Of a stretch of DNA of 64,000 bases, positions 1 to 61,344 are shown piece by piece. Source of the DNA: Blattamonas nauphoetae. Lineage: Eukaryota; Preaxostyla; Oxymonadida. Where the stretch lies: NCBI GenBank assembly GCA_033064195.1, contig JARBJD010000090.1, forward strand, positions 181,629 to 245,628. Reading direction: 5' to 3'. How positions within the stretch are numbered: position 1 is the first letter of the stretch; each line of letters begins with the position of its first letter. The position numbers and the translations under genes were made by a program. The notes under the pieces were generated by a model, which worked only from the letters and a program-made list of their open reading frames with translations, did no database searches and had not been told where the DNA came from.

Positions 1-1091
1 CCTGCTCCATCTGAGGAAGGGCGATGAGGAAACATGAAGCAGACCGACGGCTGCGGAGTGAGCTTGACCTTCCAGCAGATGATCCGCCCGTTCATCCCGC
101 CGGAGATGAGCTGCTGCGAGACTGGATCCCACTTGAGGAACGACTGCACGACGTAATCGCTCTGCAGAAAGAGGAGAACGGGAAGAAAGAGCGCAGACTG
201 TCTTTGTGGCGGTGGTTGTGAAGAAGATGCACTCGCATGTGTCATTCTTCCACAGCGATATCGTCCCGTCCATCGAGCTGGTCACGAGAAGGTCAAGTTC
301 GTCGATGAAATCGCAGCTGAGCACGACACCAGTGTGACCTCGAAGTGTTTGGATATGTTCACCGGACTGTGAAAAGGAGAGTATGAGATGGGTGAGAAAA
401 CAGAAGAAGGATGATTGAGGAAAGAAATGTTGTGTGAAATACAGATGCTTCCACCACAATAACATTGTTCGTGTGTTCTTCACAACAATAGAGTTTCTTG
501 GAGGCTGGTGAATATTGAGTACGGATGACCATATCGGTGAGGTGAACGTCCGCAACATGGTTGAACTGAAAGAGATCAGAAATGGGAAGAAGAGAGCTCA
601 TACGATCGGGTGAAATTTTAAAGTTTGTGACACGTTCTCTGTAGATTCTATAATGAAAGCCATTAATTCCTTGGTCGAGAGTGAGAGAAATGGGAGTGAT
701 GACTTGAGAAGAGCAAACATCCCAATCCATTCCACCATCACCATTCACATCAATTTCTTCGAAAAGGTTTACAAGGTTGCGGACGAAAGGAATATCAAAA
801 TAATTGTTTGGAAGGTGTTCTTCCATCAATTCCACAAACTGGAAGATTTTCGGGGCAAAAAAGAAAAAATATGAAGAGTAATCGCAAAAAAACAATTTTA
901 AAGAGGATGAAAAAACCATTAAGCGAATCTGAACTCAGATATCCTCATACATTGTGAACTTCAACTTCTTGAGATTCAAACTGCTCCTGAAGGACTTCCA
1001 TTTGATCATTGTCGAGTTCCATAAGAAGATTCATTGCGAATTGTTGTTGTTCCTGTCCGCATCTTTTGACATCGACAGTTTCATTCTCCAT
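1..1091 (-). CDS. WD40 repeat / EF-hand protein, 5' part (WDR49/EFCAB8-like)
   Basis: Partial gene whose 3' end lies beyond base 1. Exons read on the minus strand are 1091-951, 838-443, 366-199 and 161 to the window edge; introns are 112, 76 and 37 bases, all GT-AG and phase 0. The protein starts MENETVDVKRCG. An EF-hand loop (LFEEIDVNGDGGMDWD) is at about residues 77-92, followed by WD40 blades such as LRGHTGVVLSCDF ending in TISLWK, and a second blade ending in IICWK. An EF-hand of the form F..IDvNGDG..dWd ahead of WD40 repeats is typical of the WDR49/EFCAB8/WDR64 group, often linked to cilia; that role is family knowledge, not shown here. Frame agreement across all three junctions makes the structure fairly safe. 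The start could be further upstream, because no in-frame stop was confirmed just before the ATG. Confidence 0.78.
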
Positions 1092-1279
1092 CAAGGATCT
1101 TCCTGATGATCTGGAAAAAAATGACGGATGATCGAATTTATTGAAGCTGAAATCAGATGAATCGGGTCCTCTTTCTTTGAAATAATTGTTTTATCACAAT
1201 TCTCTACATCATTTGAGCCTCCACAACCTTTACTTCACAATTATCCCACCATTTTTCCTCAACCTCTTATCTTCTCATC
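1092..1279. promoter_or_regulatory. Divergent intergenic region
   Basis: These 188 bases separate the start codons of two divergent genes and must hold both promoters and 5' leaders. The stretch is A+T-rich and has no long reading frame. No TATA box or initiator could be assigned with confidence. Confidence 0.4.
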
Positions 1280-4200
1280 ATGCAAAATCATGGTCTGCTC
1301 CTCTTTGGGAACAATCTCCATTTTTTACTTGTAGCATTCTATTTATATCCACATCAAACTCCTCCTCATCCTCATCCACAACAAAGCCCTCCTCAAAGCC
1401 ATCCAATTGACGAACTGTCTTTTGTTCGATTCTTATCGCCTTTCAATCCAAGTATTGTTGTTTTCCTATCCTTTGATCGATACAAACAGTTGAATTTATG
1501 AATCATTTCCTGCGGTTCATCAAGGACCTCAAACAAGCCTCCACCACAGACTATATCAACAGATTCTCTCTCCCGTGCCAACATGCTCACTTTTTTTTGA
1601 AGAATATGAGAAAATATCAGTTTTTCTCTCCTTTATTTCACACATTTCCAGACTGCAACGTCTTGAAGAACAACTTCTCTTTGTACAGTTTTCACAAAGC
1701 ATTATTGATTTACTTTCGTCACATATAGACACAACAATCCTTTCTGGACATTATTTATCGCTATTGGCCAGTTTTTTCCCATTCAACCCGACACATTTTT
1801 CGAATTGTCTCCCACACCACGCCAATATCATGTTGCCTCTCCGAGCACCATCTCAAACAATGATTCCATTCGAAAACTTATCTCCAGAGGCCCGTTTGTT
1901 CTACCCTTTGGTGCAGGAAGCGGAGGATAAGAGACTCTTCCACAGTCTCTTCAACTTTCTGTCCAAAACAGGCATCCCTCCTCCGCAAAACAACTTCAAT
2001 TCCTACTTTTCTCATCTTTACTACCTGCTGAAGCCACTCTTCTTTGTTTGCCCTTTTTTCTTCACTCTTCCCAGTACCTGAGGTATCTCCCTCGCACCCA
2101 GACTGAATTCTCGTTTTCTGAGGTTGTCCAAGTTGCCGCTCACTTCCTCATCAACAACCCTGAGTTCTACATCGACAGGGATCGTAAATCACTCAAGCAG
2201 GCAGGGCGACTCGTCCTCATCTGGGAGAGACTCTCATTTTGCTTGCCACAGGCAGACTACAACACCATCATCTCCTCCGTTCTGAAGTCATTCTTCACTG
2301 TCCTCAGGCGCCTTTCATCACGCCCCCTCTCACAACTGACTGATTCCCACACATTCATCCTCGATCATCTCCAGCCGTTCTTCACGTCACTCCGCAGTCC
2401 TCCCACACCTTCACGGTACCACATCCCAAATTACGCCTCCTGCTTTGCCATGCCCTTCCCGTCCATCCTAATCAGTCCGATGCTTAGCGCTGCGATGGTG
2501 AAACAGTGGATCTCTACAGACGACATCATCCAGACCGTCTCTCCCTGGCTCTCATGGACTGAGACGGGTGGGAATAACAGCTTCAACATCTCTGTCATAA
2601 TCACCGTGTCCATCCACTGGCTCGATCCCTCCCCTTACATTCGTGGCATGTATAAAGATTGGGACGACTTTGATCCTGGAAACCGCACCCCTTCGTCGAT
2701 TATCCCTTCGATGAACAAACTCCCAGATCCTCCTCCATTCCCTCCTGTGGACGTATTTCTCGGTGAACTTGGTTACGAACGAGCCGCACGATTCGAAGCG
2801 GCGAACAGTCCAGCCACTCGCGAGGCCTTCAGATATGTCTGTGACATCTGCAAAACCAATCAGTACCAGCAAATGTCACAGCAGACATGCTCAACCTTCG
2901 CTGCCTTTCTCCGCAAAACGCTCCGCAACAACCATGACGAGTCCTTCTTCGACGATTACGCTCAAATTCGACCAAGCAATCTCACTCTGGCGGAGGTACA
3001 AGACACGGTGGATCTCCTAACTGACTGCAAAAGTTTTAACAAATCTCTCAATTTCAAAGTCTCTAAATATGTACAAGATAACCAGCTGGTCCAAAGTTTC
3101 ATCAGCCGAGATCTGGATCCCACACTCCAAACCAAGATCATGCTTCTTCCTTCTTCTGGCAACAATTCTGCAGATGGTCATTTGGATGACATGTGGACAA
3201 GGTTCGGGCCACACACACTATCTGAGATGCCTATCCGAATCTCTGTCTTTGTTCAACTTGCCACCAATCTTTTTGGATCCAAATCTCAACTCTCTCCCAC
3301 TGGAGTTGCCAAACTGTCACAGTGCTTTATCAAATCAATCAAAACCTATCGCAACTCGCTAGCTCATCTCGTTTCTTTGCTGAGCAGCTTCATGGACTTC
3401 ACCAATTATTTGGAGATTGAGCAAGTGCAGAACCTGCCGTGCGTCGCAAACGTCATCCTTTCATTTCTGCTCAACTGGCCACAGCCAAGCATGGATGACA
3501 CCATCCCAATCGACGCTCTTCCCCCGTTCACTCTGTACCAGCAATACTCTCATGTAGAATCGCTCCAGCCGCGCAGTATTCTCGTCGCCGTCCAACCTTT
3601 CATTGACGAGCTTGATCAAAATGGAGGAGTCAATCTCCACACAACACTGATCAATTTAGTCAATCTCCTCGTCTTTGTGAGGTCACTAACAAACTCCACC
3701 AATCTGCCATTCCCACTTTCCAATAAACTTTTCACTCAGGACAGCACACAGAAAGCAGTCGTTTCTTCGCGTCACAAGTACGCTCTCCTTGTGGAGAAGA
3801 ATGACAACCTCCAAGCCCAGCTGTCCACACCAACGACTGTCGACTGGGGTGTTTTCTTCAATATCCAACTTCATCCATACGTTGTGGACTCCATCCTCAG
3901 ACACCACCCGCCCAACACCTCCCACGACTGGTGGGGAGGATTCTACAGCACGCTGGGACCAAAGTACCTTCTCAAGCTTCTCTTTTCTGTCGTCCGAAAC
4001 ACATCTCTCGATTGGACGAAAGCGTCGCCATTGAGCGGAATCCTCACACTCCTTTCAAAGACTCTCTTCACCGGGGGGAGTTTCAACAAGACGCGTCTTT
4101 CCACGTTCGGCAAAGTTAACGTGCTGATTGGACAGGACGAGACACTCCAACCAAACCAACGTACGAATGCATTTAACAAGGCCAAGAAGACACTGAATCC

Positions 4201-7200: not shown

Positions 7201-10012
7201 GAGGATAGCCAAGATCCCCGAGTCCCTCTTTCCCAACAGGGACGTGACAAAAGTCAATCTCATCACTTCAGCGATGGACGCACTCTCATGTCGTCTCGTT
7301 TCTGACTTCAGTTTTTCACAGTTCACAGAACAGACTGGCCGTTCAAATGGCACAACAATCTCCTTTCTAACGCCACTTCTCTCTGATCCTTCCACCTTCG
7401 ACACACTCACTCTTGAGGCTTTTTTTGCTGTCTACCCAAACGTCATCACCTCTTTCCCTGCTGAGCATCGCTACCGGTATTTCAATACACTTGTCGCATT
7501 TGAGAACGAAAAGAAAGATCTAACCCAGTCGACAATCACCTCGCACATCGTCACATCTCTCAGCAATTCATTGACGATCCTCCCACACTACTCCCACAAA
7601 ACACGCCTCGACCTTCTTTCTCAACTCTTCTTCGTCCTCGCCATCGATTCTCGGGCTGACTTTGAACCAAAACTGGCACAACCATCTCTCCGCTTCTCCG
7701 GATGTCTGTCCAAAGTCTTCTTCCACCTTTTTCCGCAAGACCAAGTCTTCCCGTATCCCTCAGAGCTCTGTAGTGCACTCTATCTTCTTGCACACTATGC
7801 TCGCCACAGCAGGATTTTCTCAATGCATATTATCAACGAACTCTGTGATTACCTTTTCGATGTTGCTGGAAAGTACTCATTCGTCCCTCTCGTGGCTAAT
7901 ATTCTTCTTTCGTGCTTCTATAAGAAATGTGAGCCCGTAAAATCCAGCGACAATAATGAAGCAACTCCATGGATTGAGACACTGGTCTTAGGAAACCATC
8001 TCAATCGTTGTTCTGTCTTCTCGCCCTTTGATACTACGCCATGCATCGAGGATGCCAAAGCTCATGATCAATCTCATCTTCTCAAAGATGTTCCTTTGTC
8101 TCAAGTCCTCCTCCCTACAGACTCACCACCGAATGTGAGCATCTCCTTCGACGGAAGCCCGGCTTCCATGACATTCTTCCGTCCAAAGATTTGCAAAGCC
8201 ATTGCATCTCATTTTCCGAAGGAGAACACACAATTACAACATGAATACCTCGACTATTTCGGGCCGATGTTTGATTGGGTTCGTGAACTCGTGCAAGCAA
8301 ACGTAGAGCAGGACACTGTTCAGATGCGGGATCTTCTACAGAAGGACATGAAAACAAGAGAACGCGAACTTAATGCTGAAAGAGAACGACAGGAAGCAGA
8401 AAGACAAAGAGAAGAAGCGGAGAAACAGAGGATACAAAGTTTGAAACAGCGAGAGGAAGATGTACTCAAAAGAGAAAATGAGTTAAGAATGACAGCTGAA
8501 GAGCAGTTCAGAAAGGAAGAAAGGATGAACACGAAAATGAGGGAGATGGAAAAAGAAAGAGAGAGGATGGCAATGAAACGAGAAGAGCTGTCAAAACAAG
8601 AACAACGATTAAACATGAGAAAAACAGAACTATCGACGAAAGAAGAGGGATTGAAAACGAAAGAAGCCGAACTGTCGACGAAAGAAGAGGGATTGAAAAC
8701 GAAAGAAGCCGAACTGTCGACGAAAGAAGAGGGATTGAAAACGAAAGAAGCCGAACTGTCGACGAAAGAAGAGGGATTGAAAACGAAAGAAGCCGAACTG
8801 TCGACGAAAGAAGAGGGATTGAAAACGAAAGAAGCCGAACTGTCGACGAAAGAAGAGGGATTGAAAACGAAAGAAGCCGAACTGTCGACGAAAGAAGAGG
8901 GATTGAAAACGAAAGAAGCCGAACTGTCGACGAAAGAAGAGGGATTGAAAACGAAAGAAGCCGAACTGTCGACGAAAGAAGAGGGATTGAAAACGAAAGA
9001 AGCCGAACTGTCGACGAAAGAAGAGGGATTGAAAACGAAAGAAGCCGAACTGTCGACGAAAGAAGAGGGATTGAAAACGAAAGAAGCCGAACTGTCGACG
9101 AAAGAAGAGGGATTGAAAACGAAAGAAGCCGAACTGTCGACGAAAGAAGAGGGATTGAAAACGAAAGAAGCCGAACTGTCGACGAAAGAAGAGGGATTGA
9201 AAACGAAAGAAGCCGAACTGTCGACGAAAGAAGAGGGATTGAAAACGAAAGAAGCCGAACTGTCGACGAAAGAAGAGGGATTGAAAACGAAAGAAGCCGA
9301 ACTGTCGACGAAAGAAGAGGGATTGAAAACGAAAGAAGCCGAACTGTCGACGAAAGAAGAGGGATTGAAAACGAAAGAAGCCGAACTGTCGACGAAAGAA
9401 GAGGGATTGAAAACGAAAGAAGCCGAACTGTCGACGAAAGAAGAGGGATTGAAAACGAAAGAAGCCGAACTGTCGACGAAAGAAGAGGGATTGAAAACGA
9501 AAGAAGCCGAACTGTCGACGAAAGAAGAGGGATTGAAAACGAAAGAAGCCGAACTGTCGACGAAAGAAGAGGGATTGAAAACGAAAGAAGCCGAACTGTC
9601 GACGAAAGAAGAGGGATTGAAAACGAAAGAAGCCGAACTGTCGACGAAAGAAGAGGGATTGAAAACGAAAGAAGCCGAACTGTCGACGAAAGAAGAGGGA
9701 TTGAAAACGAAAGAAGCCGAACTGTCGACGAAAGAAGAGGGATTGAAAACGAAAGAAGCCGAACTGTCGACGAAAGAAGAGGGATTGAAAACGAAAGAAG
9801 CAGAACCGTTAATGGTGAAGCAGGGGATGATGATGCAGGAAGCTCTGTCGACTTCCGACGACCCTATTGACCTATCACATCCCCAAACTCGTTCAGCTGA
9901 ACCAAAATCTTTCAAAACGATGAAGACTCTCTCTCCTGCACCGAAATCACAAAAGAAGAGCCTGAGTCCTCCTCAAAAGACTAAGCCAAAGAGGAAGAAG
10001 GGAGGGTCCTGA
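1280..10012 (+). CDS. Giant unrecognised protein with C-terminal 14-residue coiled-coil repeats
   Basis: Proposed exons 1280-1451, 1490-1619, 1652-2045 and 2075-10012 give 2877 residues. The introns are 38, 32 and 29 bases and the frame is kept at every junction (for example phase 1 at 1451/1490). The first ATG is uncertain; 1498 is the next in-frame alternative. Residues up to about 2300 look like a helical, leucine-rich solenoid with no family I recognise. A charged segment rich in E, R, K and Q follows (about 8340-8630), then 28 copies of a 14-residue unit (TKEEGLKTKEAELS) and a basic tail ending KPKRKKGGS. The tail predicts a long single coiled coil or a stable charged helix plus a possible nuclear or nucleic-acid-binding end. 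All introns sit in the first 800 bases, with one 7.9 kb terminal exon. The gene diverges from the WD40 gene upstream. Confidence 0.75.
8630..9805 (+). repeat. 28 tandem copies of a 42-bp coding repeat
   Basis: Exactly 1176 bases, 28 x 42, run in phase with the reading frame. Internal copies look identical base for base. Only the first copy (CTATCG instead of CTGTCG) and the last (GCAGAA instead of GCCGAA) differ. Such uniformity, including at silent sites, points to recent expansion or ongoing gene conversion. The repeat also keeps the opposite strand open from 9915 to 8320, which creates a spurious 531-residue frame. Confidence 0.97.
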
Positions 10013-13217: not shown

Positions 13218-14257
13218 ATTCTATCATCCAAACCGTTTTCAATTCATAAAAAAAGGATAAAAAATATTTTGTTTTATAAACTGTGAATGAAAAAAAGAAA
13301 AATCGTTAAAATTCAGAGTGAAAAAAGACACCCTAAGTGAAACCTGTCTGGTTCTGATAAATATGGATCAATTGAAAGAAAAAAACATCATATCTTAATA
13401 ATGGCTTCGTAATGACGGATTCAAGTAGGCTTTGTCCTATTTTTGTCGTGAGATCCTTTCTCCTGCCGATCTGTTTTGGATCGGCTGTCCGGGTTTCTTC
13501 AGACACTTTTGTCACCATGTTTTAGAAGAAACAGTGAAAAAGAGAGAGAGAGAACAGTCTCTGAAAGTCGTTCATCTCTCTTATCACTCCTTATTCTACT
13601 TCACACCCAACAAAAAAACAGAGCAGACTTTATCGATGAATATCATTCTATGAATTGAATAAGAGAAAGTCTGAATTATTTTGTACGATATCATCGATTT
13701 GGTCAGCTTATTACATTTCGTGAAAACTCTTGATAAAATGATCCTTGAGAGAAACTGTCTGAGAAAGAAAGATATGACATGTAGAGAAAGAAATGACATG
13801 AAATTCAGAATGAGAAAACAAGATGGTGCACATGCTCCCACGAGCCCCCGAATCACCAACCCCGCGTCCCCGACTCAAATCGCGAGTCGGGGCAAATTTG
13901 AATCCCTGATACACAACCACAACAATTGCACACATTAAAATTTACGTCAATTTTACATATGTAGATGAAAAGATACAGTGTAAATTCAATGCTGAGTGCA
14001 TTCCTCCAGATCTCGAATTCGCGAGTATGTTGGGCTCACACAAATATCTGGGCGACGAATCAAAACTTAAAGAAGGTTCTAAGAATGACAGTCCATACTT
14101 TTCACTTTTAGTGAACGAGATGTTAAAATTTCTCAAGCAGGTCGGCGAGGAAGTTGAACAAACGATGAAGATGTAAACCCTTGCATTTTTATCGCAATTT
14201 TGCCAAAATGAGTCGTGAAAAGTGGCCCTTCTCATGGACAAGGCGGTTTTCTCAATG
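13218..14257. other. Non-coding, degenerate sequence
   Basis: No convincing gene. Near 13875-13900 a perfect hairpin forms from CCCCGACTC and GAGTCGGGG around a 7-base loop, inside a locally GC-rich patch (13830-13930). A minus-strand open frame lies at 13942-14316, but it overlaps a repeat copy and has no recognisable domain. Confidence 0.35.
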
Positions 14258-14500
14258 ATTGTGGTGTCACCGTTTAGTTCCATGACAACCATGAGTGTTT
14301 TTTCTGGAAAAGACAATATTGGTCATACTTAGAAAAACAAAATATTTCGAATGATACTCTCGCGCGATCCCGAAAAATCCTCAAAATACCTCGTTTTGAC
14401 AGCTTTTTTTATGGATTCTTGTCATATCTTCACAAGCTGTGAACCGAATTTAAAGAAATTTGCTACAGAAACGTTTTTTTCATGAGAACCAAATTTTTTC
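14258..14500 (-). repeat. Diverged copy of the GTGTCACC inverted-repeat family
   Basis: Starts TTGTGGTGTCACC and continues through GCGATCCCGAAAAATCCTC and CAGAAACGTTTTTTT in the same order as the reverse complement of the arm at about 51590-51878. This is therefore a second, diverged copy of the 600-bp element described there, 37 kb away. Only one end is clear; the other end fades after about 14500. Confidence 0.6.
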
Positions 14501-14964
14501 TTTTTTTGAATAACTTTAATCGATATATTTTCGACATAATGCTCTTTATTCGGACTCAAACGGATGTCTGGTTATGGAAAAATGATCGTCAAAGACTGGA
14601 AAGTGTGTGGCGTTTCGCTGTAAAACGTATTGTGACGCCACAACGAGTTGCAGGAGTCGTTCTTCAAAATTGAACTGTTTTCGTTGTATGATCATCTTCT
14701 GGACTTTCTGGCAAAATCTCGAACTATGGCGGTGAATTGATTTTCTGCGTCTTTCTTGACAAAAAATACTTTGGAATTAGTCCGATTAAGGATTTGACAT
14801 TCTTCGATGACAGAAAGGTCTCTTTCTTCCCTTGCTAACCACCGAGCATGTGGGAAATTTCCAAAGAGCATCTGATCGATGAAATCGATGCTAGACGAAG
14901 AAGTATGAATCTTCCCGCCGAGAAAGCGATTCAAAAGACACATCTACCGATAAAACCAACTATG

Positions 14965-15070
14965 CAGCCATGGATAAAAGTTTACGGTCACCCTTGACCG
15001 CGTTTATCAGCACATGAATTTTTCTAGTTTTTAAACAAACACTTCACAACAATGAATGAATGTTATTTCT
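14965..15070 (+). repeat. Left 106-bp inverted repeat arm
   Basis: Pairs with 19219-19324; the only difference noticed is in the run TTTTTAAAC versus TTTTTTAAC. It contains the internal near-palindrome CGGTCACCCTTGACCG. Confidence 0.85.
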
Positions 15071-15147
15071 CTAATATATTTCACTTCAATCTCTCACCAT
15101 GTTTTTCACTTCAACAGACTGTTATTGAAATATATTAGAGAAATAAC
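15062..15147. repeat. Perfect 22-bp-stem hairpin inserted in the left arm
   Basis: Bases 15062-15083 (GTTATTTCTCTAATATATTT plus CA) are the exact reverse complement of 15126-15147, with a 42-base loop. The right arm of the 4.36-kb unit runs straight from its 106-bp arm into AGGCATGGGC and lacks this hairpin, so it was added to, or lost from, one side only. Confidence 0.75.
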
Positions 15148-15538
15148 TAGGCATGGGCACCAGTCACCGGACTCAAACTTTTCGGACTGACTCGATTTGG
15201 CCCTTTTTTTGTGGTTCTTTGAGAGGAATCGTGATTTTGTCGTTGTTGGTGTATTCAAAGTGATTATAATGTCTGAATTACATCAATATTTGTGGCAAAT
15301 GCTTCTCTAATCATTGGATCGGTATGTGAGTTGATCAGCGCATAATCACTACTTGTGACACTGATATCAAGAAATCATGGATGTACTGTGACCTTAATTG
15401 CTCGCCGACAAAAGAAAACATCATTAAAACTGATTTTGAAAGAAAGTGATGAGAAACGAACATCAGGCATTGCGAAAGAAGCCGAACAAAGAACGAAGCC
15501 GTGAAGTGCTGTCGTGTCGGCGGGTACAGACGAATCAC

Positions 15539-16184
15539 TCACGCCAGCAGATGACACAACAGAGAGCACACATACAGCGAATTCATCTCCTGCTTCAGCT
15601 TCTCGCTCTGCCCCTCTTCTTCAATTTTGAACGGCAGGAGAGGGGACGAGTAGATATCTGTGTGGTCGATGAAGACGATTGAAGACAAGGTTCTTCGTCC
15701 ACAAACTCGCCTGTCACCAACATCTCGTGGAGAGATTTCAGTGCAGACGACGGATCGTCGAACGGATGAAAACGATTGCCCTCTTCCTGCTCCTCTTTCT
15801 GCCCGCCAAAACCGACACACGCTTCGCTGGAAGCGTTGACGGTCTCTTCGTCTCATCCCTCCTCTTCTTGCTGTTCTTCGACGTGTTCGTTGACAGATAC
15901 AGCGCTGGTTGGTATTCGATGAAGAGATGGTCGGCGTAGATGTCGTCCACCTTCTTAAACAGCAGGCTGTGCAGAGCTGATGGCAGGAACGACGAAGGAA
16001 GTCCTTTCGTTGCGGATGTCGCTGGGATCGTCAGCTGGTGATGTCCACGCAGTGTTGCCAATGCTATTGGCGTTGACACAGGCGGTGTCAGGAAGAACAG
16101 CACTGCATCGTTCGTTTCCTGTTGTCGTTGAAATCCCCCTGCTGCTCCCTTCCCTCCCAATGTTCCCGAATGAAGTGTCGACAT
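15539..16184 (-). CDS. Possible small gene or 3' exons inside the inverted-repeat unit
   Basis: GC-rich sequence is open in overlapping frames. One frame starts MSTLHSGTLGG at 16184 and runs 148 residues to 15738 through LFKKVDDIYADHLFIEYQPALY. A second frame continues to 15539 through IVFIDHTDIYSSPLLPFKIE. The composition looks coding rather than spacer-like, but I could not join the frames with confidence and recognise no domain. It follows the stop codon of the 370-residue gene by only 9 bases, so it could be the continuation of that gene through an unrecognised intron. Confidence 0.3.
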
Positions 16185-16193
16185 TTTCTGTCA

Positions 16194-17422
16194 CTAATCC
16201 GCCGTCACATTCGTCGCAATCACAACCAACTTCGCCGACACCATCGCGAACAATGTCCGAGTCAGTGGCGATGGATAGAAGAACTGGCGTGTCTTCACTG
16301 TCGAACGTGAAGGGAGTGCGACCAGACGGTGTGGATTCTCGAACGACACAGCCGCACTCGTCGACGCACCGGACGGCATGATCATCGTCGTGATCACCGA
16401 AGGCGAGTTGGCTGCCCTGAACGGCGTGGTCTGTCGTGCTCTTCTCTCCGACAGCGGAGATGTCAGAGGACTTTGCGGTGGCGGTGTTAGTTTAAATGAA
16501 TGGTGCGTCTTCTTGTTTGATTTATCGCGATCGGCTTGTTCTTCGTTTCTTCGGCGTTCTCTCCAGCTCCAGAACGCTTGTTTCGCTTCTTTCCGAACCT
16601 CTTCGCGATCTGTCTCGCCCAAGATCAGTCGAGGCGTCACAAACGACGAATCATACAAACACCAAAACGCACCCACGTTGATCGGCAGGAATGGCGATTG
16701 TTGGATCGTGCTGCTTGAACTGTCCTGAAAGTCCATCATGTTTCCCGAGTTCTTCAAAGATGCGTCGCTTCTGCCTTTGTGTTTGTTTTCTTTTTCGAGT
16801 GAGGTGTGTTCGCGCGGTCGGAAGATCGATTGCATGATGTCTTCCGACTTTCCACTCCCAACCTTCGCAAGCACGTGCTGGCCTGTCTTGTCCTTCAACA
16901 CGGTGAGCAGAGCGTCTTCTTCATAGCGGCCTGGAGGGAAGAGATGGATGCGAGAGTCATGAGAACGAAAGCGAGAAAACGATTGGAAAGGAGAAAAGAG
17001 CAAAAGTGGTGAAAAACTAAAAAAGAGAACATGAACACAATCAGACCTCCAGTCAACGCCAGAAACTCGAGCAGGTTGTCGACATCGTCGTCCTCCTCGC
17101 CAATCTTCTTCGCCACCCCGTGCTGATACGCCTGTGCATCTCGCTCCCTCCGCAGTCTGTCCAGCACAGCTTCGGCGATCTCGTCCAGTTGTATCGATCC
17201 GAAAGAGTGATTCCGAGCTTGCGTCGTTTCGATTACCGCCTTCTTCACAAGAGACGGCTTCAGTTTCATCTCTTTCAACACAATCAGCCAGTCCACAAGG
17301 TTCGACTCATCACTCAAATCTTGCCCACTCCCATTCAGCGAGATGGAGGGTGGTTTAGTGCAGAAAGGGATGGTTGCGTCGAGTTTGTTCGCTGACATTG
17401 ACATCTTTGGTTTTTGAGGCAT
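16194..17422 (-). CDS. Unrecognised 370-residue protein carried within the inverted-repeat unit
   Basis: Exons 17422-17047 and 16930-16194 flank a 116-base GT-AG intron; splicing is needed to keep the frame (phase 1). The protein starts MPQKPKMSMSANKLD. It has a helical N-terminal third (LVDWLIVLKEMKLKPSLVKK, then IAEAVLDRLRRERDAQAY) and an acidic patch EEDDDVDN. The middle (GAFWCLYDSSFVTPRLIL, then KEAKQAFWSWRERRR) is followed by a Ser/Thr/Pro-rich C-terminus. I do not recognise the family. It has none of the DDE, tyrosine recombinase, helicase or reverse transcriptase motifs expected of a mobile-element enzyme. Upstream coding-like sequence (17423-17940) may add N-terminal exons, so the start is provisional. 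Confidence 0.5.
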
Positions 17423-18402
17423 TTAAAAGGCGCTTTGAGAAGAGGAACTGTATTTGAATGTAGGAGTCTGTGTGACGGTGTCTGGACGTTGGGAGGGGAT
17501 GCTTGAGGCGCGCCGTCACCAGTTGCTCCAAGAAGTTCCGAGTTTAGGGCTCTTGGAATTGGAGAGCATACCGACGTTTCAGTTCTCGCACTCCGAAACT
17601 CGCCACAGCTTCTCTCACGTGCTATCTGCTCCTTGTCTGTCAGAACCCATGGTTTGATCGGAAGACCTCCCAAAATCGTTTTTGCTTTCTGTTTTGTGTT
17701 CGAGTTCGGTGCTTTTGTCGTGTTGTGGCGGAATTGTGGCATGAAGTGGATAGAGGACGATGCAGAGGGAGACATGTTAATGTAGAAGAAGTAAGGCGAT
17801 GAAAGAGAGTAAAGTGATGCCGGCGACAGAAAAAACGGCGAAAGAAGATATTTCGGTTCATGCCAAAGTTGCGATGGCGTCAGCTTGGGATGTGGTTTCT
17901 GCGGAGTAGATAGCGGTTGCGTATATTGGATAGGATTCAAAAACAGAAACGCTAGAGGGAATCACGTTGGATTATTGTTGAAGAAAGGGTGTTTTGCGGA
18001 CATCATAAGTTGGAGAGTCGCTGCCGATGGTTGGCGAGGTTTTAGGCATCAGAGAGATAGGGGAGATAAATATACATCCGATTTAGTTGGGCTGGATGAG
18101 CCAGAGCGGGGAGTGAACATGGCGCGAGAAGCGACTCAGGAATCGATTTGAGGAGATCAGAAACAAAAGAATGGTGAGTCAACAGGAAGCAGATATCACG
18201 ATAACAATCGTGCAAGTGCACTTCGGATGACTGTCGTGGTTCTGGAATGGGCGAAAAGGCCTCGATATAGAACAACAGGAGAATCCCACTGAAAGACGCC
18301 ATTTTCTTCAGTTTTTGCATATTCTGAGGTGTTTGGAAAGAAGAAGATGACGTAAAAGAGACAGAAAAGCATAGGTGAACCACAAAAGGAAAAAGATTTC
18401 AC
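17423..18402 (-). other. Possible upstream exons of the cargo gene
   Basis: Open minus-strand frames include 17940-17335 (LGGLPIKPWVLTDKEQIARE is its most protein-like stretch) and 18402-18196 (ENGVFQWDSPVVLYR), each preceded by plausible CAG acceptors. I could not chain them into one model. This may be the 5' part of the 370-residue gene or a separate small gene. Confidence 0.25.
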
Positions 18403-19876
18403 AAAACACCATTTATTGTTGGGATACGAGGAACGATGTGATTAACTGTCAAAATTGAGTGAGATACGTTTCCTGGACAAAAAATTATGACAATATATAA
18501 ATAAATATGCATCGTTGAGTAGACTTGAAATGGTTTAGGACACTATACTGTCAATAGTCACGAGTGAGACGGTGCTCTGTGTTGTTGGTCCAGAAGAGAG
18601 ACTGGAGATGTTCTGAGAATCAAACATGACTATAGCAGATCAAGATTGCAAACAGATGTGCCAAACGATGGTTTTGCCCTTATTTTCTCCATAGATAATT
18701 TGCGGGGGTGAGTTGATCCTGAAGGTCAAAATCAGTTTCCTTTTGTCAAATAGAGAGGAAATGAAAGGAAAATCAAAATTCAAACATTGTCGATTCACGC
18801 GCTGAGTTTCAGTTGAAAAGGAGATCGGACAGTCCAGTCAGTCCGGTGACTATTTGCATGATTGCATGGGCGGATCAGTGACTCAAAGTGACTCGAGACA
18901 AAAGTATGGGGTCTGATGATGACCTGAGTCTAAATTGGTTTGATTTATCTGAAAATGAGTTGAATTCTAAAAAATAGTGTGAAATGTGAAAGAAACACTA
19001 CGAAAAGCGATTGAAAGAGGATGGAGATTGTGAATGTGTTTTTGAGAGGAATAAACCAGGATATTGAGGTGATTATCTATACTGCTGCGATGTTCGATTG
19101 GAAGTGAGACATTTTGGGTCTGGATTCCTCTTGTTTTGGACATATGGGGGTGAGTCACTGACTCGATTTTTTTAGGTGACTGGACTCGGTCATTATTGAC
19201 TGACTGTTGCCCATGCCTAGAAATAACATTCATTCATTGTTGTGAAGTGTTTGTTAAAAAACTAGAAAAATTCATGTGCTGATAAACGCGGTCAAGGGTG
19301 ACCGTAAACTTTTATCCATGGCTGATAGACAGGGAATATATGTACGAGAGAATTGTCATTAATATCACCTTTTCAAAAATGAAAAAATACCTTAGAGCGA
19401 ACCGTTGATTTTATTCAGGTTTTGAGAGCTTACCGAGTTTTGAAGAGCACTTTCATGACTGTGCCCGGGAATGTTCAAGCTTGATTCAAACAACATTTGT
19501 ATTTCGTTTGATGTGTATTCAGTTTTGAAAATAGAGTTAACTAAATTGACAATGTGGAGAAACCTCAAATGAACGAGCTTCCCATTCATGACCCAGAACT
19601 GGATTTTGACCGGGCACTTTCGTCATTGTTTCAATAGATCCGTGGAGATCCTCAATCTAAACAGACTCCATTCTATCAATTCACACTGATATGTAATTTA
19701 TCTCGTTGATTTCACTTCATAACTTCTGTGATCTGTGTTTTGTCAACCATTTTTTTCAATCAACTTTTTCGACCACTGGAAAGACTAGCTCTATCCTTTT
19801 CAGACTATTGACTTGACCTCGTGTGGTATCAGCTTGGTGTTATCTCTTCCATCCTCTAATTCCGTGGATATCAATC
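18403..19876. other. Non-coding sequence and end of the inverted-repeat unit
   Basis: No gene is supported. From 18830 to 19215 there are repeated GTGACT, GACTC and TCAGTCCGGTGAC motifs in both orientations, echoing 15150-15200. These look like subterminal repeats of the unit that ends at 19324. Sequence after 19325 is A+T-rich and leads to the next gene. Confidence 0.4.
19219..19324 (-). repeat. Right 106-bp inverted repeat arm
   Basis: Reverse complement of 14965-15070 with about one mismatch. It is followed by ATAGAC; the first TA beyond the end lies at 19326-19327. Confidence 0.85.
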
Positions 19877-22800
19877 ATGACAGAAACATCTTTCCTTCAA
19901 CAAAAACTCAACTCTGTGATTCATTTTTTAGAAATGAGACTTGAATCTATCAAAACCATGCTATTTTTCTTCCAAGTATGGTAATACATCTCTATAAATT
20001 CCTTATTATGTTTGTTGTATTCAATTTTCATCAGAGACTCAAACAGAATCCAGAATCACTCATAATTCAAGACGAAACCAAAAAACTAAGGAACATTTTG
20101 GTTAATGATCATCAACAACGAGGCTTGCTCCATTTTTCATCATCATACAATCTTAGATGGTTCTTTATCACTCGACCAGTCTCTTAAGGACGTCTCAACG
20201 ATAATATCCTTGTCCAATGATCACAATGTCTCCAACTTTGTCCGAAAACTGGTACAGTTCTCTCTTTTGTGATCATCCTTTTTCTTTACATCTCTTTGGA
20301 TACAGCACCAACTCATGGAATCTTTGCAAGCGGTTCCACAAGTGACGTCAACGCCCTTTGACGAAATTCTGTCTGAGATTGATTCTCAGATCGCAAAGCC
20401 CTCTCGTCAATCTGTGGGAGCGTCGACACACTTGACTGAGCCGTCCAACAATGATCTCCATCTTCTCGTCCCGCCGTCGCTGGAGCCTTTCTTCCGCCAG
20501 TCGTACTTTCTGAGCTTTGACAACCTCAAATCATTCCAGACTCTCGTTGAAACAACCCTCTCTCTCTCCGAAACATCAGCAACAAAAGCACACGAACCAC
20601 CACACCGCAACCCACTCAACCAATCTGCCATGAAGATGTCTCTCACTGCCTCTGTCGCTCTGAAAAGCATGTCGTACCGGAGAGACGACACTGCCCGCCT
20701 TGCCACAACCCTCGACACTGTCAAAGCACACGTGAATTGCTCCACACAAGTCTTCGACAATCTCAACCAGACCGCACAGACTGCCCTCTCTCGCCTCGAC
20801 GCTTTGAGGCGGAAGCAATCATCCAAACCGACGCACAAACGAAGTCGAGCCGCACAGAAACTCCAAACCCCACTCGCACTCAGCCAGGTGCTCCCGTTGG
20901 GCCGTGACCTTCCACGGAATTCCCGCATCCCATCGACACCGATGGGACCAGTGTCTCCGCATTCGAGAGGGGAGACGCACACAGTCACAGGTGGAAAGAT
21001 ACGAAGCCAGCGAAAAGACACCACCCACACAGCGATGAAGGAGGCGATGAAGATCCTTACCCAGACCAGGAGTGTCTCATCCGGCCATTATCGTCACACC
21101 AATCCCCCATGCCACACTGCAGTGCTGAGGACTGAGCAAATGGAGTCGGCCTTCTTCAATCGAACACTCCCTCCCCTTTCGATAAATGACTTGGAGATTC
21201 AGTCTCTGATTGACATCAAAACCATCTCGACTATCCTCACCAACACCTCCCGCCCTTGTCGAATCTGCCGATCTCCGAGACATCGCAGAGCTCGCTCTTT
21301 GCCTCCGCTACGCCTTTCACCACCCGCTTCTCAGATTTCACAAGACGCCTTCGAAACAAGCTCCTCTTCACTTTCGTGGCACGTTGTGTCCATTCTTGTG
21401 GAGCAGTACCTGTCCGACATTTTGACCTCGATCCATAAAATCACACGGACAAGCAGACTCCATCCGGAGACAAGAAAAACATTGCCGTCTTCATTCTCGC
21501 TGAAGATGCACCCTCGAAGACCACTTTCCATCCGCAAGCACGACCTCACCACTCAAGCGCTATTTCAGCCAGTGCAGGCGACGGTGTCCAATCAACGCGC
21601 TCTGACTGAATACGCAAACAGGTTCGAAATGACACAGAATCATTGGCGCCCTCATCTCCCTCGCGAAATCCTGACAGCAACTGGAATCATCTCTTTCCCG
21701 ACCAGGCTTGCCACAGATAACACCACGACTCTCACATCCCTCCCTCCAATTCTTTCCAATTTTCTGCACGCCATACACTCGTTGCCAGTGAATCCAGAAG
21801 CACGTCTTGATCCGGTTCATCAGCATTCGCTAGACGAAGTCGAAATCACAATCCTATCTGTCCTTTCACTTTTCCTCACAAATGGATTTTTCACAAACAC
21901 ACGTCTCCCACTTCCCACTGCCACATCGTATGCGTCTCTTCAGCGTGCACTCCAACTCACTCTTCACATCCTCCATTGCTTCCGAAAGGCACAGTCCCAT
22001 CCTTCCCCACGACGACGAAAACGAAGACAGTATTCCAGCGACCCATTCCACCTTTTTCTCTCCTCGATGACAGATGACGGTGTCAAACTTCCTCTTACAA
22101 CACACATCTCGCTTGGCGACTTCGACCAAGTCCTCACAAAAGCCCAGCGCCAACTTCGAATCATTCTGCGGAAGTACCCACACGCTCTCGTGCGAGCCGG
22201 ACAGCCTGCGGTTGGTGCCTCGTACTCGGTCGAGTCCCTCCCCCCTTCTTCTCTTGCCTCGCCTGCGTTTCTGGAGCAAGTCCTCCACGTGATCTCTCTG
22301 GAATCACAAATCGTCCCAAACTCCATTCTCACATTCCCGTCGACTGGGTCCCCTCTCCACCAACGTCCTGGCTCAACCCTCCCTCGTGCTAAAGCTGTCA
22401 CAGCCTTCACCCTCCTTCTTCATCCACTCTTCTGGCGACTCCATCCGTCTCTCATCACCCAGTCTGGCGGGATGCACACTCTCAGAAACCTGGTGGACCG
22501 CTCGTTTTCTTCCTTCTCTCTCTTCCTACAACCACAAACCGATTCCGACAATAAACAATTTACGGGTGGATCCACATCATCACCACGCCAGATCCAGGCA
22601 GACCTGTTCAAGCAATCCAACACGACGCATCAGACCACAAAAGAACTCCTGTTCCAGATTCCTCGCAGCACCGAGAAGGAAATCCTGCCCACAGACAGAC
22701 CGCTCAGCAGTGAGCCAACTGATGCAGACCATTCCACTTTATTCCATCCACAATCCACCAAACCCACACCCATTCGGAGTATCGACCACCACATCGCAAC

Positions 22801-54904: not shown

Positions 54905-55380
54905 TTTCGGACTTTTGAATGATGTCAAAAATTCTGACCCATTTCTACCAGCTCGTTGGATTAAGGCACGTGGGATGGTGGTCACGGCTTCTCGAATCTG
55001 TTGTCGAGTTGTGGTAGTGTTCGTGGATTATGGATTTTGACTCGTTCAGTGAGCTCATTCCACAGCCAGAAGTCGCACGGAGTGAGATCCGGACTTCTGG
55101 CTGGCCAATGGTATGTGCCGTTCTTTCCGATCCATTTCCCAGGCAATCTTCGATTGAGAAACGGGACGGTTTTGCGGGCGGTGTATGCATGTGCCCCATC
55201 CTGCATGAACCATGTTGTGTCTCTTGGAGCTAGGCCTCGCCGAGCTTTAAAGATCGATCGCCGAAGCATCTGCCGATATTTTTAGACAGTCATCGACCCC
55301 CTCGTAGAATATTGGGCCCATTAGACCTAGACATGAGATCGCACACCAAACATGCAAACCACATCGAGTGTTCGGGATCT
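54905..55380 (-). pseudogene. Mariner-like transposase relic abutting the 18S rRNA gene
   Basis: On the minus strand VWCAISCLGLMGPIFYEGV is followed, after a 1-base frame change near 55285, by TTWFMQDGAHAYTARKTV and then WPARSPDLTPCDFWLWNEL. WFMQDGA..H and SPDLTP.DF.LW are hallmark blocks of mariner-family DDE transposases. The N-terminal half is missing; the readable part stops at about 55377, where 18S sequence begins. The 3' terminal repeat is at 54905-54942, inverted relative to the one at 54720-54757. Confidence 0.75.
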
Positions 55381-55908
55381 CGACGTGGAAGCAGTGTCAA
55401 AAAAATACAAATGCTGGGTTATCTCAGCAATTTGAATGGTTGTGGTGTAAGTATCCGCAAGAGCAGCGATTAGAGGGCAAGTCTGGTGCCAGCAGCCGCG
55501 GTAATTCCAGCTCTAATAGTGTATACTAAAATTGCTGCAGTTAAAAAGCTCGTAGTTGGATTTTGGAGGAAACGTCGATTTCTGTGTGATGGGATACATT
55601 GTGTTTCATCTTGCAGGAAGTGTTTTTTCCGATATTTTCGAAGACAGGTCTTGCGCTTTATTGAGTGAGGCTATGGATTCGGAGGTTTTACTTTGAAGAA
55701 ATTGGAGTGTTCAAAGCAGGCGTTATGCAACTGAACAGATTAGCATGGAATAATAAAATAGGACACTTGTTTATTGTTTTCTTCGGAAGATGATAAAGTC
55801 CATTTTGTTGGTTTATGGAGCAGGTGTAATGATTAATAGGGACAGTTGGGGGCATATGTATTGCATTGTCAGAGGTGAAATTCTTGGATTTATGCAAGAC
55901 GAACTAAG

Positions 55909-55955
<47 letters not shown>

Positions 55956-56585
55956 AGGGGATCGAAGGCGATCAGAAACCGCCCTAGTCTTAACTATAAA
56001 CGATGCCAACTAGGGATTGGAGGGAGCTTTATGGCCTCGTCAGGACCTTTAGAGAAATCAAAGTCTCTGGGTTCTGGGGGGAGTATGGTCGCAAGTCTGA
56101 AACTTAAAGAAATTGACGGAAGGGCACCACCAGGTGTGGAGCCTGCGGCTTAATTTGACTCAACACGGGGAAACTTACCAGGTCCAGACACGGGAAGGAT
56201 TGACAGATTTTGAAGCTCTTTCTTGATTCCGTGGGTGGTGGTGCATGGTCGTTCTTAGTTGGTGGAGTGATTTGTCTGGTTAATTCCGATAACGAACGAG
56301 ACCTCAACCTGCTAAATAAGTTGGTCGCTTTTTAGTAAGTGATGTAACTTCTTAGAGGGACTACTACAGTTGCATGTAGGGGAAGCTTGAGGCAATAACA
56401 GGTCTGTGATGCCCTTAGATGTCCTGGGCCGCACGCGCGCTACACTGATTGATTCAACGAGTTTGTGCTTGCCCGAAAGGGTTGGCTAATCTTTTGAATG
56501 TCAATCGTGCTGGGGATTGATCTTTGTAATTTTGGATCATGAACGAGGAATACCTAGTAAGTGCAAGTCATCAGCTTGCGCTGAT

Positions 56586-56635
<50 letters not shown>

Positions 56636-56714
56636 ATCAGATGAAATGTTCGGATGATGTGATTGCAGTTGTGCAAGTGACAGCGGTTATGTTAGAAGAA
56701 CAGTGAATCTTATT

Positions 56715-56775
<61 letters not shown>
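55381..56775 (+). rRNA. 18S (SSU) rRNA, 5'-truncated
   Basis: Begins within the region equivalent to GACACAGGGAGGTAGTGACA of other eukaryotes (here CGACGTGGAAGCAGTGTCA). It includes the GTGCCAGCAGCCGCGGTAAT block at 55487-55506, GGTGAAATTCTTGGATTTAT, AAATTGACGGAAGGGCACCA, TTGTACACACCGCCCGTCGC and the 3' end GTAGGTGAACCTGCGGAAGG. Roughly the first 430 bases of a normal gene are absent; instead a mariner relic is directly upstream. The remaining part is co-linear with a normal 18S and has no insertion. The left boundary is accurate to about 15 bases. Confidence 0.93.
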
Positions 56776-56777
<2 letters not shown>

Positions 56778-56895
56778 AAAATATAAATATATTAAACAAT
56801 ATATGATAATAAAATAAAGTCTACATTTAGTGATGTAGATTTTAAGGTGCCTCTATATAAACATTATATGCGTAGCCAATGATATATAAAATGAT
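56776..56895 (+). other. Internal transcribed spacer 1
   Basis: About 120 bases of A+T-rich sequence between the 18S 3' end and the 5.8S start. Confidence 0.8.
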
Positions 56896-57045
56896 AAACT
56901 TTTGGTAGTGGATATCTTGGCTCTTGCATCGATGAAGAACGCAGCAAAGCGCGATAGTTAATGTGAATCGCAAGAATCTGTGAATCATCAAAGTTTTGAA
57001 CGCATCCTGCGGTGTCTTAACTTTTAGTTAAGAGACCATTCTTAT
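56896..57045 (+). rRNA. 5.8S rRNA
   Basis: Contains GATATCTTGGCTCTTGCATC, GATGAAGAACGCAGC and AATCGCAAGAATCTGTGAAT in canonical order, then TTTTGAACGCATCCTGCGG. The 3' end is approximate. Confidence 0.9.
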
Positions 57046-57265
57046 TTCAGAATTGGTAAATATTAAAATATCTTTTTATCCTTACTTGGGATAGAAAGGA
57101 AATGAGATGAACATATTGAGTATATGTCATCTTTAATAATATCGATATATGAATCATTAAGAGATATTGTTGAAATATGATATATAAACAATTTGATATT
57201 TAAATATAAATATTTAATTGTCTTGCATACTTCTGTTTTACCAACTCACTTTATATATATAAAAC
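57046..57265 (+). other. Internal transcribed spacer 2
   Basis: About 220 bases, strongly A+T-rich, between 5.8S and 28S. Confidence 0.8.
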
Positions 57266-58541
57266 AATCTGAAATTAAGAAAGATTACCCGCTGAACTGA
57301 AGCATCTAAATAAGCGGAGGAAAAGAAACTAACTAGGATTCCTATAGTACCGGCGAGGGAAGTAGGAAAAGCCCAAAGCTAAAATCTATGCGGGCTGTTT
57401 TGCATGCATAGAGATGTGCTTTATAGATGTGGGGTTGTGTTGTGAAGAAGATAGAGGCTAAAATACCCTTTCGAACGGGTTATCATAGAGGGTGAAAATC
57501 CCGTTTTTGGCCTTGTTTCACAATGCGCTAAGCTCTGCAATCGTCGAGTCGGGTTGTTTGAGATTGCAACCCTAATTGGGTGGTAAGCTTCATCCAAGGC
57601 TAAATATATGCAAGAGACCGATAGCGAACAAGTACCGTAAGGGAAAGATGAAAAGTATTTTGGAAAAAAGTTGAAATAGGGCTTGAAACTTCCAAAAGGG
57701 AAGCGATACAACTCTATAGAGAAGATTTGTTATATATCGATTGTTGGAAAGATTTTTGAAGATGTGTAATTATAACTGTAAAAGGTTAAACATATTTTCA
57801 AGAGTTTTTCTGATGATTAGATATATAATAGAAATCGGTCAATCGTGTTTTCTGATAATCAAGATTTCAAATTCAGGAAGGTAGAATTGTTCATTCATTT
57901 CGATGGGTGGATGATTTGTTTATAGCCTCGAATTAGACGGATTTGAATATTCTACATAGGAGGAGAACACAAATGAACCTTATTGATTGGGGTTTAAGTT
58001 TATCTTAACGAGAGTATCTTTGCAAGGAAATTTTGATGATATGTGGTTGATATATGATTTACTTTGATTAGTTTCGGCTAGTCAATTGGTAAGTAATAAT
58101 TGATCGTATATTGTTGAATGCAATTAGACGGCTCTGTTCGAAGATAGATTTTAAGATTGACTTTAGTTGGATATGGATTGTATTGCCCCGTCTTGAAACA
58201 CGGACCAAGGAGTCTATCAGACATGCGAGTATTTGGGTAATTTAAACCTAATAATGCGTAATGAAAGTGAAGACAATCGTTTTGGATTGTTGAGATATGA
58301 AATTATGATCTGTCTAGATTATGATGGCAATATCGACCGACTGATTCTAAAGATTAATTTCCAACTCTCGGGTTGGAAGGGATTGGTTCGAGTTATAGCA
58401 TATCTGATAGGACCCGAAAGACGGTGAACTTTGCTTGAGTGTGGGTGAAGCCAGAGGAAACTCTGGTGGAAGCTCGTCGGGGTAATGACGTGCAACTCTT
58501 TCCTTAGACTTGAGTTAAGGGGCGAAAGACTAATCGAACCG

Positions 58542-58587
<46 letters not shown>

Positions 58588-59057
58588 TTGTTATAATGAG
58601 TTTTGTCCGGTAAAGCGAATGATTAGAGGTCTTGGGGGAGGAATTCCCTCAACCTATTCTCAAACTCTAAATGGGCAAAAAGACGTTTGTAAATGATGAT
58701 TGATTCAGGGAAGGGATTGATTTTACTGATGATTGTATGAATGGATGCCTTTTGGGGTAATTGTTTGTATGATTATTAGGGATTTATTCTGGAAATGAGT
58801 TGATTGTTGTTGAAGGTTTAAATTAGATATATGGATTGTCTACCTTTAAAGTGTTGTTTAAGTAAACAGCGTGATAAAAAGATGATCCAATAAAGAATTG
58901 AATCAATAGCTCCAAGTGGGCCATTTTTGGTAAGCAGAACTGGCGATGCGGGATGAACCGAAAGTTGTGTTAAGGTGCCGGAATTTGTGCTCATGAAGAT
59001 ACCATAAAAGGTGTCAATTCATATAGACAGCAGGACGGTGGCCATGGAAGTCGGTAT

Positions 59058-59091
<34 letters not shown>

Positions 59092-60273
59092 TGAATTGGC
59101 CCTGAAAATGGATGGCGCTTCAGCACAATACCTATACACGACCAAAATCATGATGATGATTTTGTGTAGGAGGGCGTGCGGGTTTTTTAGAAGCTATGAT
59201 GTGAATCATGGTGGAAAAGCCTGTAGTGCTGATCTTGGTGGTAGTAGCAAATATTCAAATGAGAAACCTCTCAATGGGGGATAATTTTGAAGACTGAAGA
59301 GAAGAAAGGTTCCATATGAATCTAATTGAGATATGGGTTAGTCGACCCTAATGAATCGGTTAAATACCGTGATATAAAATGGATTTTGTAAAAGCAGGAT
59401 TCATATTCAGAAAGGGAAGAAGGTTAATATTCCTTCACCTTTTACGTGTGGATAATTAAAATGGCAACATAAAGAAGCCTGTACTCATCAGAAAACACAT
59501 CGGGAAGAGTTTTCTTTTCTTCTTAACGACTGATAAAGCTCGTTGTTAATATTATTTGCATGAGCATTGGGCATGGAAGCGGGTTAACCGGAGAAGTGGC
59601 CAATCAGTTGGAAGAGCCCCTCTATTTATATGAGGAAGACATTTATTGTTGATAGCAAGTAAAATGGTCCGATTGTGTTTTATGATCCTTGAAACTACAG
59701 GGGACTGAATGATTTTCACACGAGGTCGTACTGATAACCGCAACAGGTCTTCAAGGTGAGGAGCCTCTAGTCGATAGAAGAAAGTAGGTAAGGGAATTCG
59801 GCAAAATAGATCCGTAACTTTGGGAAAAGGATTGGCTCTAAGGATCGGTCCGTCGGGTTCGATGAAAGCGGGTTACTTATTTAGATGGATTGTGTTGATT
59901 TGTTGGCGGGCTTGGCAACAGGTCTGCTGATGAGTTGATATAGTCTGTTTAAGGGTGGCAGCGCGTGTCGTAAGTGTGCTTGATTGTGTGTCTATATTGA
60001 AGAGGAGACTTTTTGATTGGATGCAAAATTGGGTGCATTTTCTCGAATCGCTTTTTAATCGAAGCGAGTTAGTTTCGGATTGTAGATCTCGATCTGCAGA
60101 CGAGATTAATGGAGTATAAACGATTAACTTAGAACTGGAACGGACAAGGGGAATCCGACTGTTTAATTAAAACAAAGCAATGTGAAGGCTGGAAAACGGT
60201 GTTGACACATTGTGATTTCTGCTCAGTGCTCTGAATGTCAAAGTGAAGAAATTCAATCAAGCGCGGGTAAACA

Positions 60274-60317
<44 letters not shown>

Positions 60318-60416
60318 CTCTAATTAGGGACGCGCATGAATGGATTAACGAGATTCCCACTGTCCCTATCTACCATCTAGCGAACCCACAGCCAAGGGAA
60401 CGGGCTTGGAAGAATC

Positions 60417-60454
<38 letters not shown>

Positions 60455-61344
60455 AGAATCTGTGAAATGATTTAGAGGGTATAGGATAGGTGGGAGAGGG
60501 CAACCTCGACAGTGTAATACCACTACTTTTATTATCATTTTACTTATTTGATTGTTGAGGAGCATTATATGGTGTACTGGTGTGATATGTTTGTAGTCCT
60601 CGGATTATACGCAGATTGCATTTCAGGCCATATTATGATTCTGGAACTAAACGTTAAAGGAGTTGGTTTAATTTATGATGATGGGGTCTAGTTGGGGCGA
60701 CTTGACTAGGTTCTACATTGTATGGCGACTCTGGGGGATAGTAGTCTTCGGGCTATGTGTACCTACGTGATCTCATTCAAAGACATTTTCTGATGGGGAG
60801 TTCGGCTGGGGCGGCACATCTGTTAAACAACAACGCAGGTGTCCTAAGATGAGCTCAGTGAGAACAGAAATCACGTAGAACAGAAGGGTAAAAGCTCATT
60901 TGATTTTGCTTTTCAGTATGAAGACAAACCGTGAAAGCGTGGCCTAACGATCCTTTGAGTTTTACAAGTGTTAAGCCAGAGGTGTCAGAAAAGTTACCAC
61001 AGGGATGAATATATAGAAATATGTTGCGATGTAGTTAGATAGTCCCAGTTAAATATATTATATTTAGCTAGTCACTTATGGAAGTAAGTGGCAACACACC
61101 TGGTTATTGAAATATATACAGAGATGTATATAATCAATAAATCATTTTATAAAGAAATGATTTTGACGGTCGGTAAGGTGTGCACCAAAATGACCATGTA
61201 TGTATGTGTTTTGGTGTATGGTACGACCTATCCCAATTATAAAATAATTATTAAATTGTACGACTTGTATAATTGATAATAGTAATATTGAAGTTGGTAA
61301 ATATGAGAACTGGCTTGTGGCAGCCAAGCGTTCATAGCGACGTT

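Follow-up and report, generated by a model that had tools for sequence, protein, structure and literature searches.

The window analysed here, the terminal 64 kb of contig C828 of the oxymonad Blattamonas nauphoetae (GC content 46.0%), contains an inverted repeat whose two 106-nt arms (positions 14965-15070 and 19219-19324) are 99% complementary and 4,148 nt apart. It was the sole inverted repeat reported by a scan of positions 14000-20500 for repeats of at least 30 nt. Between the arms lies a spliced open reading frame (ORF) of 370 residues with a predicted GT-AG intron, and no Pfam family matched any of the 10 proteins and ORFs of the unit at E<=1, Pfam being the only transposase domain test applied to it. 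The near-identical arms, the spliced ORF and the lack of a visible transposase had all been described in the original prediction, made from the sequence alone, and they stand. That prediction took the arms as the borders of a gene-carrying mobile unit, and missed a second pair of ends, with an 8-bp duplication, that lies inside them. These inner ends delimit an element of 4,072 bp (hereafter the inner element) inserted into one arm of a much smaller fold-back element (the outer element). The genome sequence searched comprised 88,311,006 bases in 837 contigs, and 20 further copies of the inner element and 20 loci of the outer element were sampled; loci and contigs are given below by our numbers with the prefixes L and C. 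The features of the locus are listed in Table 1.

Table 1. Features of the nested elements, in window coordinates.
Feature	Position	Strand	Details
Outer element, left part	14965..15147	+	119-bp arm 14965-15083, 42-bp loop, first 22 bases of the other arm 15126-15147
Target-site duplication, left copy GAAATAAC	15140..15147	+	
Inner element, multicopy Pack-TIR (probably Pack-hAT)	15148..19219	.	Shared ends, 8-bp duplications, end-motif counts
Inner left terminal region, outside the captured gene	15148..15447	.	No blastn match to host locus L074; present in other copies
Captured host-gene fragment	15448..18352	-	Collinear with C118:69763-73003, 87-88% DNA identity, three pieces, internal deletions
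370-residue ORF, exon 2	16194..16930	-	Stop at 16194; host gene without a stop there
Predicted GT-AG intron, 116 nt	16931..17046	-	Host counterpart in-frame, stop-free, one base longer
370-residue ORF, exon 1, internal piece of captured gene	17047..17422	-	ATG at 17422
Inner right terminal region, about 870 bp	18353..19219	.	Partly present in end-motif elements whose interiors gave no captured-gene match
Target-site duplication, right copy GAAATAAC	19220..19227	+	
Outer element, rest of right arm	19228..19324	+	97 bases; inverted-repeat scan and reconstruction without the insert

The inner element has the ends TAGGCATGGGCA...TGCCCATGCCTA, of which TAGGCATGGGCA forms an exact 12-bp terminal repeat, and it is flanked on both sides by the exact 8-bp duplication GAAATAAC. 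Searching its two end regions genome-wide, with 40 candidates scored per end, returned at least 42 and at least 40 matches, respectively. All 20 further copies carry the same ends. Counting the window copy, the 8-bp duplication is perfect in 20 of 21, the other (L051) agreeing at 7 of 8 positions, while shifting the comparison by 1 bp as a control reduced the agreement to 1-6 of 8. Since L033, L034 and L035 sit on one common flank, they were counted as a single insertion, so that the 21 copies represent 19 insertion sites, at 18 of which the duplication is perfect. The copies fall into two main subfamilies, 94-95% identical to each other. The first (the window copy, L033-L035 and L049) is 99.3-100% identical internally, and the second (L036-L048) 99.6-100%, except for the pair L044-L048 at 93.8%, both of which contain extra sequence. 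The remaining copies are more distant (88-89% for L050 and L051, 64-66% for L052). Near-identical copies at different sites demonstrate recent movement of the inner element. The original prediction had read mobility from the near-identity of the arms, which is uninformative about the mobility of the cargo.

A 13-base end motif occurs 193 times in the whole genome (96 forward and 97 reverse), as against none for the reversed pattern used as a control. From the 135 of these 193 ends that were listed, 42 facing pairs could be formed; 33 are spaced 3.5-4.15 kb and 35 fall within 3.1-4.15 kb, the other seven intervals being 5.6-17 kb long. The three long intervals that were read (L044, L048 and L049) hold extra inserted sequence. 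In L049 (C97:96745-105786), a copy of the window subfamily 8,439 bp in length, three more inserts (about 0.7, 2.6 and 1.1 kb) are present, and 10-11 bases are repeated at the borders of two of them. L045 and L046 have, in their last 450 bases, a second left-end copy 144 bases inside the true end, with the duplications at the outer end.

Taking out positions 15148-19219 together with one GAAATAAC restores an outer element of 280 bp, with 119-bp arms that differ by one mismatch. The right arm as reported by the scan begins at 19219 because the inner element ends there: its first base belongs to the inner element, the next eight are the second GAAATAAC, and the remaining 97 are true arm. The arm is repeated in the genome: a search scored 40 matches out of 83 candidates, and many of these form inverted pairs 889 bp apart. 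A script found facing arm pairs in 17 of the 20 outer loci (none in L055, L062 or L067), and 15 of these 17 relatives measure 888-890 bp, too short for the gene; the exceptions are L070 (1,742 bp) and L059 (3,693 bp). The arms therefore occur mainly as borders of short elements, and the claim that they bound the gene unit had to be given up. From a comparison of L059 with L057 and L058, we judged the 889-bp elements to have arms of about 369 bp and a middle of about 150 bp, the window copy being a 280-bp short form. Each of the 20 outer relatives has at least one aligned stretch, 72-93% identical, that runs across the insertion point without the insert; in L053 the identity reaches 93.3% over 164 bp, at both of its ends. 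These uninterrupted stretches are empty sites.

The outer family ends in CAG...CTG and duplicates 3 bp of target. The duplication is exact in 15 of the 17 relatives, or 15 of 18 pairs when the window copy is included; the misses are the window copy, L069 and L060, and in L060 the script had placed the left end 3 bases too far inward, TTT being seen on both sides by eye. MITEs (miniature inverted-repeat transposable elements) and fold-back elements are short and have long inverted repeats and target duplications. The outer element resembles them in all these respects and in showing no coding capacity, and differs in its 3-bp duplication combined with CAG...CTG ends; it is a non-autonomous fold-back MITE. 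The CACTA superfamily, in which the ends read CACTA, was considered and rejected, the left ends being CAGTC or CAGCC in all 18 pairs after the correction of L060. L059 (positions 888-3708; on C35) was considered as an autonomous or gene-capturing outer copy, and rejected as such: it looks like an 889-bp-type element broken by extra sequence, and a stretch of its inner part is multicopy, with 14 nearly identical genomic places including itself. By eye, two inserts surround a 28-bp piece of the outer loop, and the larger has a possible 6-bp duplication, TTCAAC. This stretch also matches parts of C126:85667-107020 at 82-87%, and the L059 insert is perhaps another gene-carrying element.

The cargo of the inner element derives from a host gene. 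The 370-residue protein matches C118:70804-72021 in two parts (85% and 91% identity) within an open frame of 3,536 residues, and the sampled part of this locus (L074, 3,750 nt) is a single open frame throughout. Bases 877-3772 of the inner element (reverse strand) are collinear with L074 by blastn in three pieces at 87-88% DNA identity, with deletions; this alignment indicates that about 2.9 of the 4.07 kb were derived from one host gene. The homology stops at window position 18352, the query having extended to 18700, and neither the 300 bp nor the 870 bp at the termini matched the gene in the blastn comparison with L074, which aligns solely to the captured interior. No end motif was present on C118 in the contig-ordered motif list, which is complete for that contig, sequence below C118:69763 lying outside what was read. 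The suggestion of Pack-TIR-like capture (TIR, terminal inverted repeat) in the original prediction thus holds for the cargo, for which a parent gene is present on C118, and fails for the arms, which belong to the separate outer element. The parent protein has distant paralogous frames of 2,288-3,327 residues (for example on C223, C160 and C39) that are 30-32% identical. It matched no Pfam family over 1,250 residues, and a single PDB match at E 0.47 was discounted.

Judged by its alignment to C118, the 370-residue ORF is a cut-out of the host gene there, with a start and a stop that differ from those of the gene itself. A role as transposase was rejected, the protein having no Pfam match and aligning to the host gene. 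Its reading in two unbroken exons is confined to the window copy. In the other 20 of 21 copies the frame is interrupted by shifts, stops, gaps or insertions, with L050 and L051 retaining 224 and 245 of the 370 residues; in L033-L035, given their place on contigs of 21-35 kb, assembly errors may account for some of the small indels. One copy has a second cargo. L052, whose ends are the same and whose 8-bp duplication is perfect, encodes a protein matching ABC_tran (E 1.7e-21), the best match of which elsewhere is on C371 (76% identity, within a frame of 1,396 residues). It also contains a stretch of the C118 type, with 82.7% identity to the window copy over 271 bp and, over 252 bp, 85.7% identity to the host gene. 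Another paired interval, C104:14209-17953, includes pieces that are 70-86% identical to the L052 ABC protein.

We regard it as highly probable that the locus consists of a multicopy Pack-TIR, most likely of the hAT superfamily, which carries a host-gene fragment and is nested in a fold-back MITE. The data show the nesting itself, the target duplications of both families, the empty sites among outer relatives, the parent gene and recent multiplication. The outer MITE would have been in the chromosome first, and the 4.07-kb non-autonomous element would later have been cut and pasted into its right arm, duplicating GAAATAAC, by a transposase presumably made elsewhere and supplied in trans that recognizes the inner ends. 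At an earlier stage, an ancestor of the inner element would have copied about 3.2 kb of the C118 gene, which encodes a giant protein, between its ends; the captured copy would afterwards have lost pieces and then multiplied. TIR elements gain copies through repair or through replication-linked transposition. The capture itself would most likely have relied on gap repair with template switching; PMC8277862 discusses this route for Pack-TIRs, mainly for single-copy ones.

The superfamily of the inner element rests on its ends, size and duplication. According to the description in PMC3942097, hAT elements are 2.5-5 kb long, with terminal repeats of 10-25 bp and 8-bp duplications, and the inner element fits this length, has short terminal repeats and makes an 8-bp duplication. 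With this fit, the proposal that the locus might represent a new element type finds no support. The genome has many hAT transposase genes, a domain search in which the best candidates were scored giving at least 61 matches to PF05699. A search with the protein of a resident hAT transposase, in which the best 70 of 269 candidates were scored, added to these, and the two sets of hits were collapsed by hand into 95 places. One resident hAT family (L082, L083, L087 and L088), distinct from the inner element, has transposases that are near-identical across the 625 residues compared; its 3' end lies near GGGCCCGACAACCCTG.

Several observations weigh against the reading of a hAT-type Pack-TIR nested in a MITE. 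The outer copy in the window is flanked by ATG and ATA, with no exact 3-bp duplication. None of the 95 transposase places fell within the 42 paired intervals or, on the inward side, within 10 kb of any of the 135 ends, and no autonomous partner was found by this comparison; one place is situated just outside an end, on C363. The resident hAT family on C124 and C431, whose 3' end could be delimited, ends differently, near CAACCCTG. With no transposase found in the family intervals, and with scoring limited to the best candidates in both searches, the label of hAT stands as likely, not proved. The inner element might instead belong to another superfamily that makes 8-bp duplications, be it Merlin, P or one as yet unknown, and only look hAT-like, an alternative that we consider unlikely. 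In its favour are the empty intervals just described and the abundance of Merlin, with its 8-bp duplications, in the oxymonad Monocercomonoides according to PMC8101967; yet Merlin ends start with GG in that account, whereas the inner ends begin with TA, and the agreement in length, termini and duplication with hAT, together with the many hAT transposase genes in the genome, argues against it. Merlin in particular was rejected, the inner ends starting TAGG, not GG, with the duplication directly adjacent.

The remaining adverse observations concern selection on the cargo. When the host-frame codons are taken unsplit, comparing the window copy with L036 gives a ratio of nonsynonymous to synonymous substitution rates (dN/dS) of 0.54, or 0.45 for the 370-residue region by itself, and comparing it with L050 gives 0.44. 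Divergence along the captured fragment is uneven. In a split analysis of the window copy against L036, the P values of which are not independent tests because the block was delimited after the identity profile had been viewed, a mosaic block (L074 positions 1126-1824) has a proportion of synonymous differences (pS) of 0.20 and a ratio of nonsynonymous (pN) to synonymous proportions of 0.33 (Fisher P 2.6e-6), and selection on this block is possible. Outside the block, with 7 codons set aside for stops, pS is 0.051 and pN 0.043 (pN/pS 0.83, Fisher P 0.38); divergence in the noncoding ends is about 4%, with 33 differences in 870 positions and 11 in 297. Neutral decay of the captured sequence outside the block is supported, not proved. 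Since pS in the block is fourfold that outside, the block may stem from a different source in one lineage, for instance through exchange with a paralogue or with the host gene.

That the ORF is a working gene under selection, domesticated or accessory and spread by the element, seems to us very unlikely. Its intact frame in the window copy, the dN/dS of 0.45 in its region and the low ratio in the block are what such a gene might show, but that frame is disrupted in the other 20 copies read, the rate outside the mosaic block is near neutral, the host gene starts and stops elsewhere, and L050 and L051, with only part of the residues, nevertheless occupy different sites, one flanked by a perfect 8-bp duplication and the other by one matching at 7 of 8 positions. 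As part of the nested Pack-TIR, the ORF is probably passenger sequence yielding no useful protein, and its annotation as a host gene should await RNA evidence.

The idea of one 4.36-kb gene-capturing Pack-TIR with the 106-bp arms as its true termini can be dismissed as scarcely credible: near-identical arms do enclose the gene and one other pair (L059) is 3.69 kb apart, but that pair resembles an interrupted 889-bp element, nearly all relatives are of the short size, the captured gene, whole or in part, occurs in 20 further copies that share the inner ends and lie in different surroundings, and the 8-bp duplication is situated inside the arms.

It is conceivable, if on balance doubtful, that the genome harbours an active gene-shuffling system, in which one set of hAT-type ends (193 motifs, several size classes) carries different host-gene fragments and joins two genes, as in L052. 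Gene shuffling on such a scale is known mainly from plant Pack-MULEs. Were the idea true, coding DNA would be moved and recombined in an oxymonad at the scale of those elements, and some of the fused frames might be expressed.

Elsewhere in the window, complete SSU-5.8S-LSU ribosomal RNA (rRNA) genes are present at positions 55309-62033, close to the contig end, and are followed by tandem repeats at 62102-63104. The LSU match is 4,769 bases long against a model of 3,401 positions, which indicates that the gene holds expansions or inserts. At positions 8627-9806 there are 28 copies of a purine-rich 42-bp unit (99% match), in a region where the AT skew is 0.50 (positions 8001-10000); the unit length is divisible by three and may therefore correspond to a 14-residue protein repeat.

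A limited search of the open literature returned no such elements from oxymonads in titles or the opening parts of abstracts, and the term 'transpos' is absent from the main text of PMC10703272, the paper on the published Blattamonas nauphoetae assembly. Our results extend multicopy gene capture of the hAT type to a metamonad protist, and also illustrate how, through a nested insertion, an ordinary MITE can come to resemble the boundary of a new mobile unit. The closest comparison is with the Pack-TIRs of animals, including Pack-hAT, as they are presented in PMC8277862. These likewise have non-autonomous ends around a host-gene fragment, a parent gene elsewhere that lacks the ends, and several target duplications, which in both cases point to repeated transposition. 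Among 100 animal genomes that account gives four multicopy cases (1.4%), with a frog example of a 291-bp capture, whereas the captured piece in the inner element is about 2.9 kb and insertions were read at 19 sites, of which 18 show a perfect duplication. The plant Pack-TYPE elements outlined in PMC8903248, which include Pack-hAT, share hAT-type ends, the 8-bp duplication and captured coding DNA without a transposase; they belong to another eukaryotic lineage, and the likeness is one of class. In the fungus Pseudocercospora fijiensis, the hAT element with histone H3 described in PMC6710886 also carries and multiplies captured host sequence and makes 8-bp duplications. By that description it is about 9.5 kb long, contains a hAT domain and has terminal repeats of 20 bp, in contrast to the inner element, which has 4.07 kb, no transposase found by Pfam and a fragment of a much larger gene. 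On these accounts, gene capture by hAT-type transposons is already known in animals, plants and fungi, and the inner element adds a case from an oxymonad.

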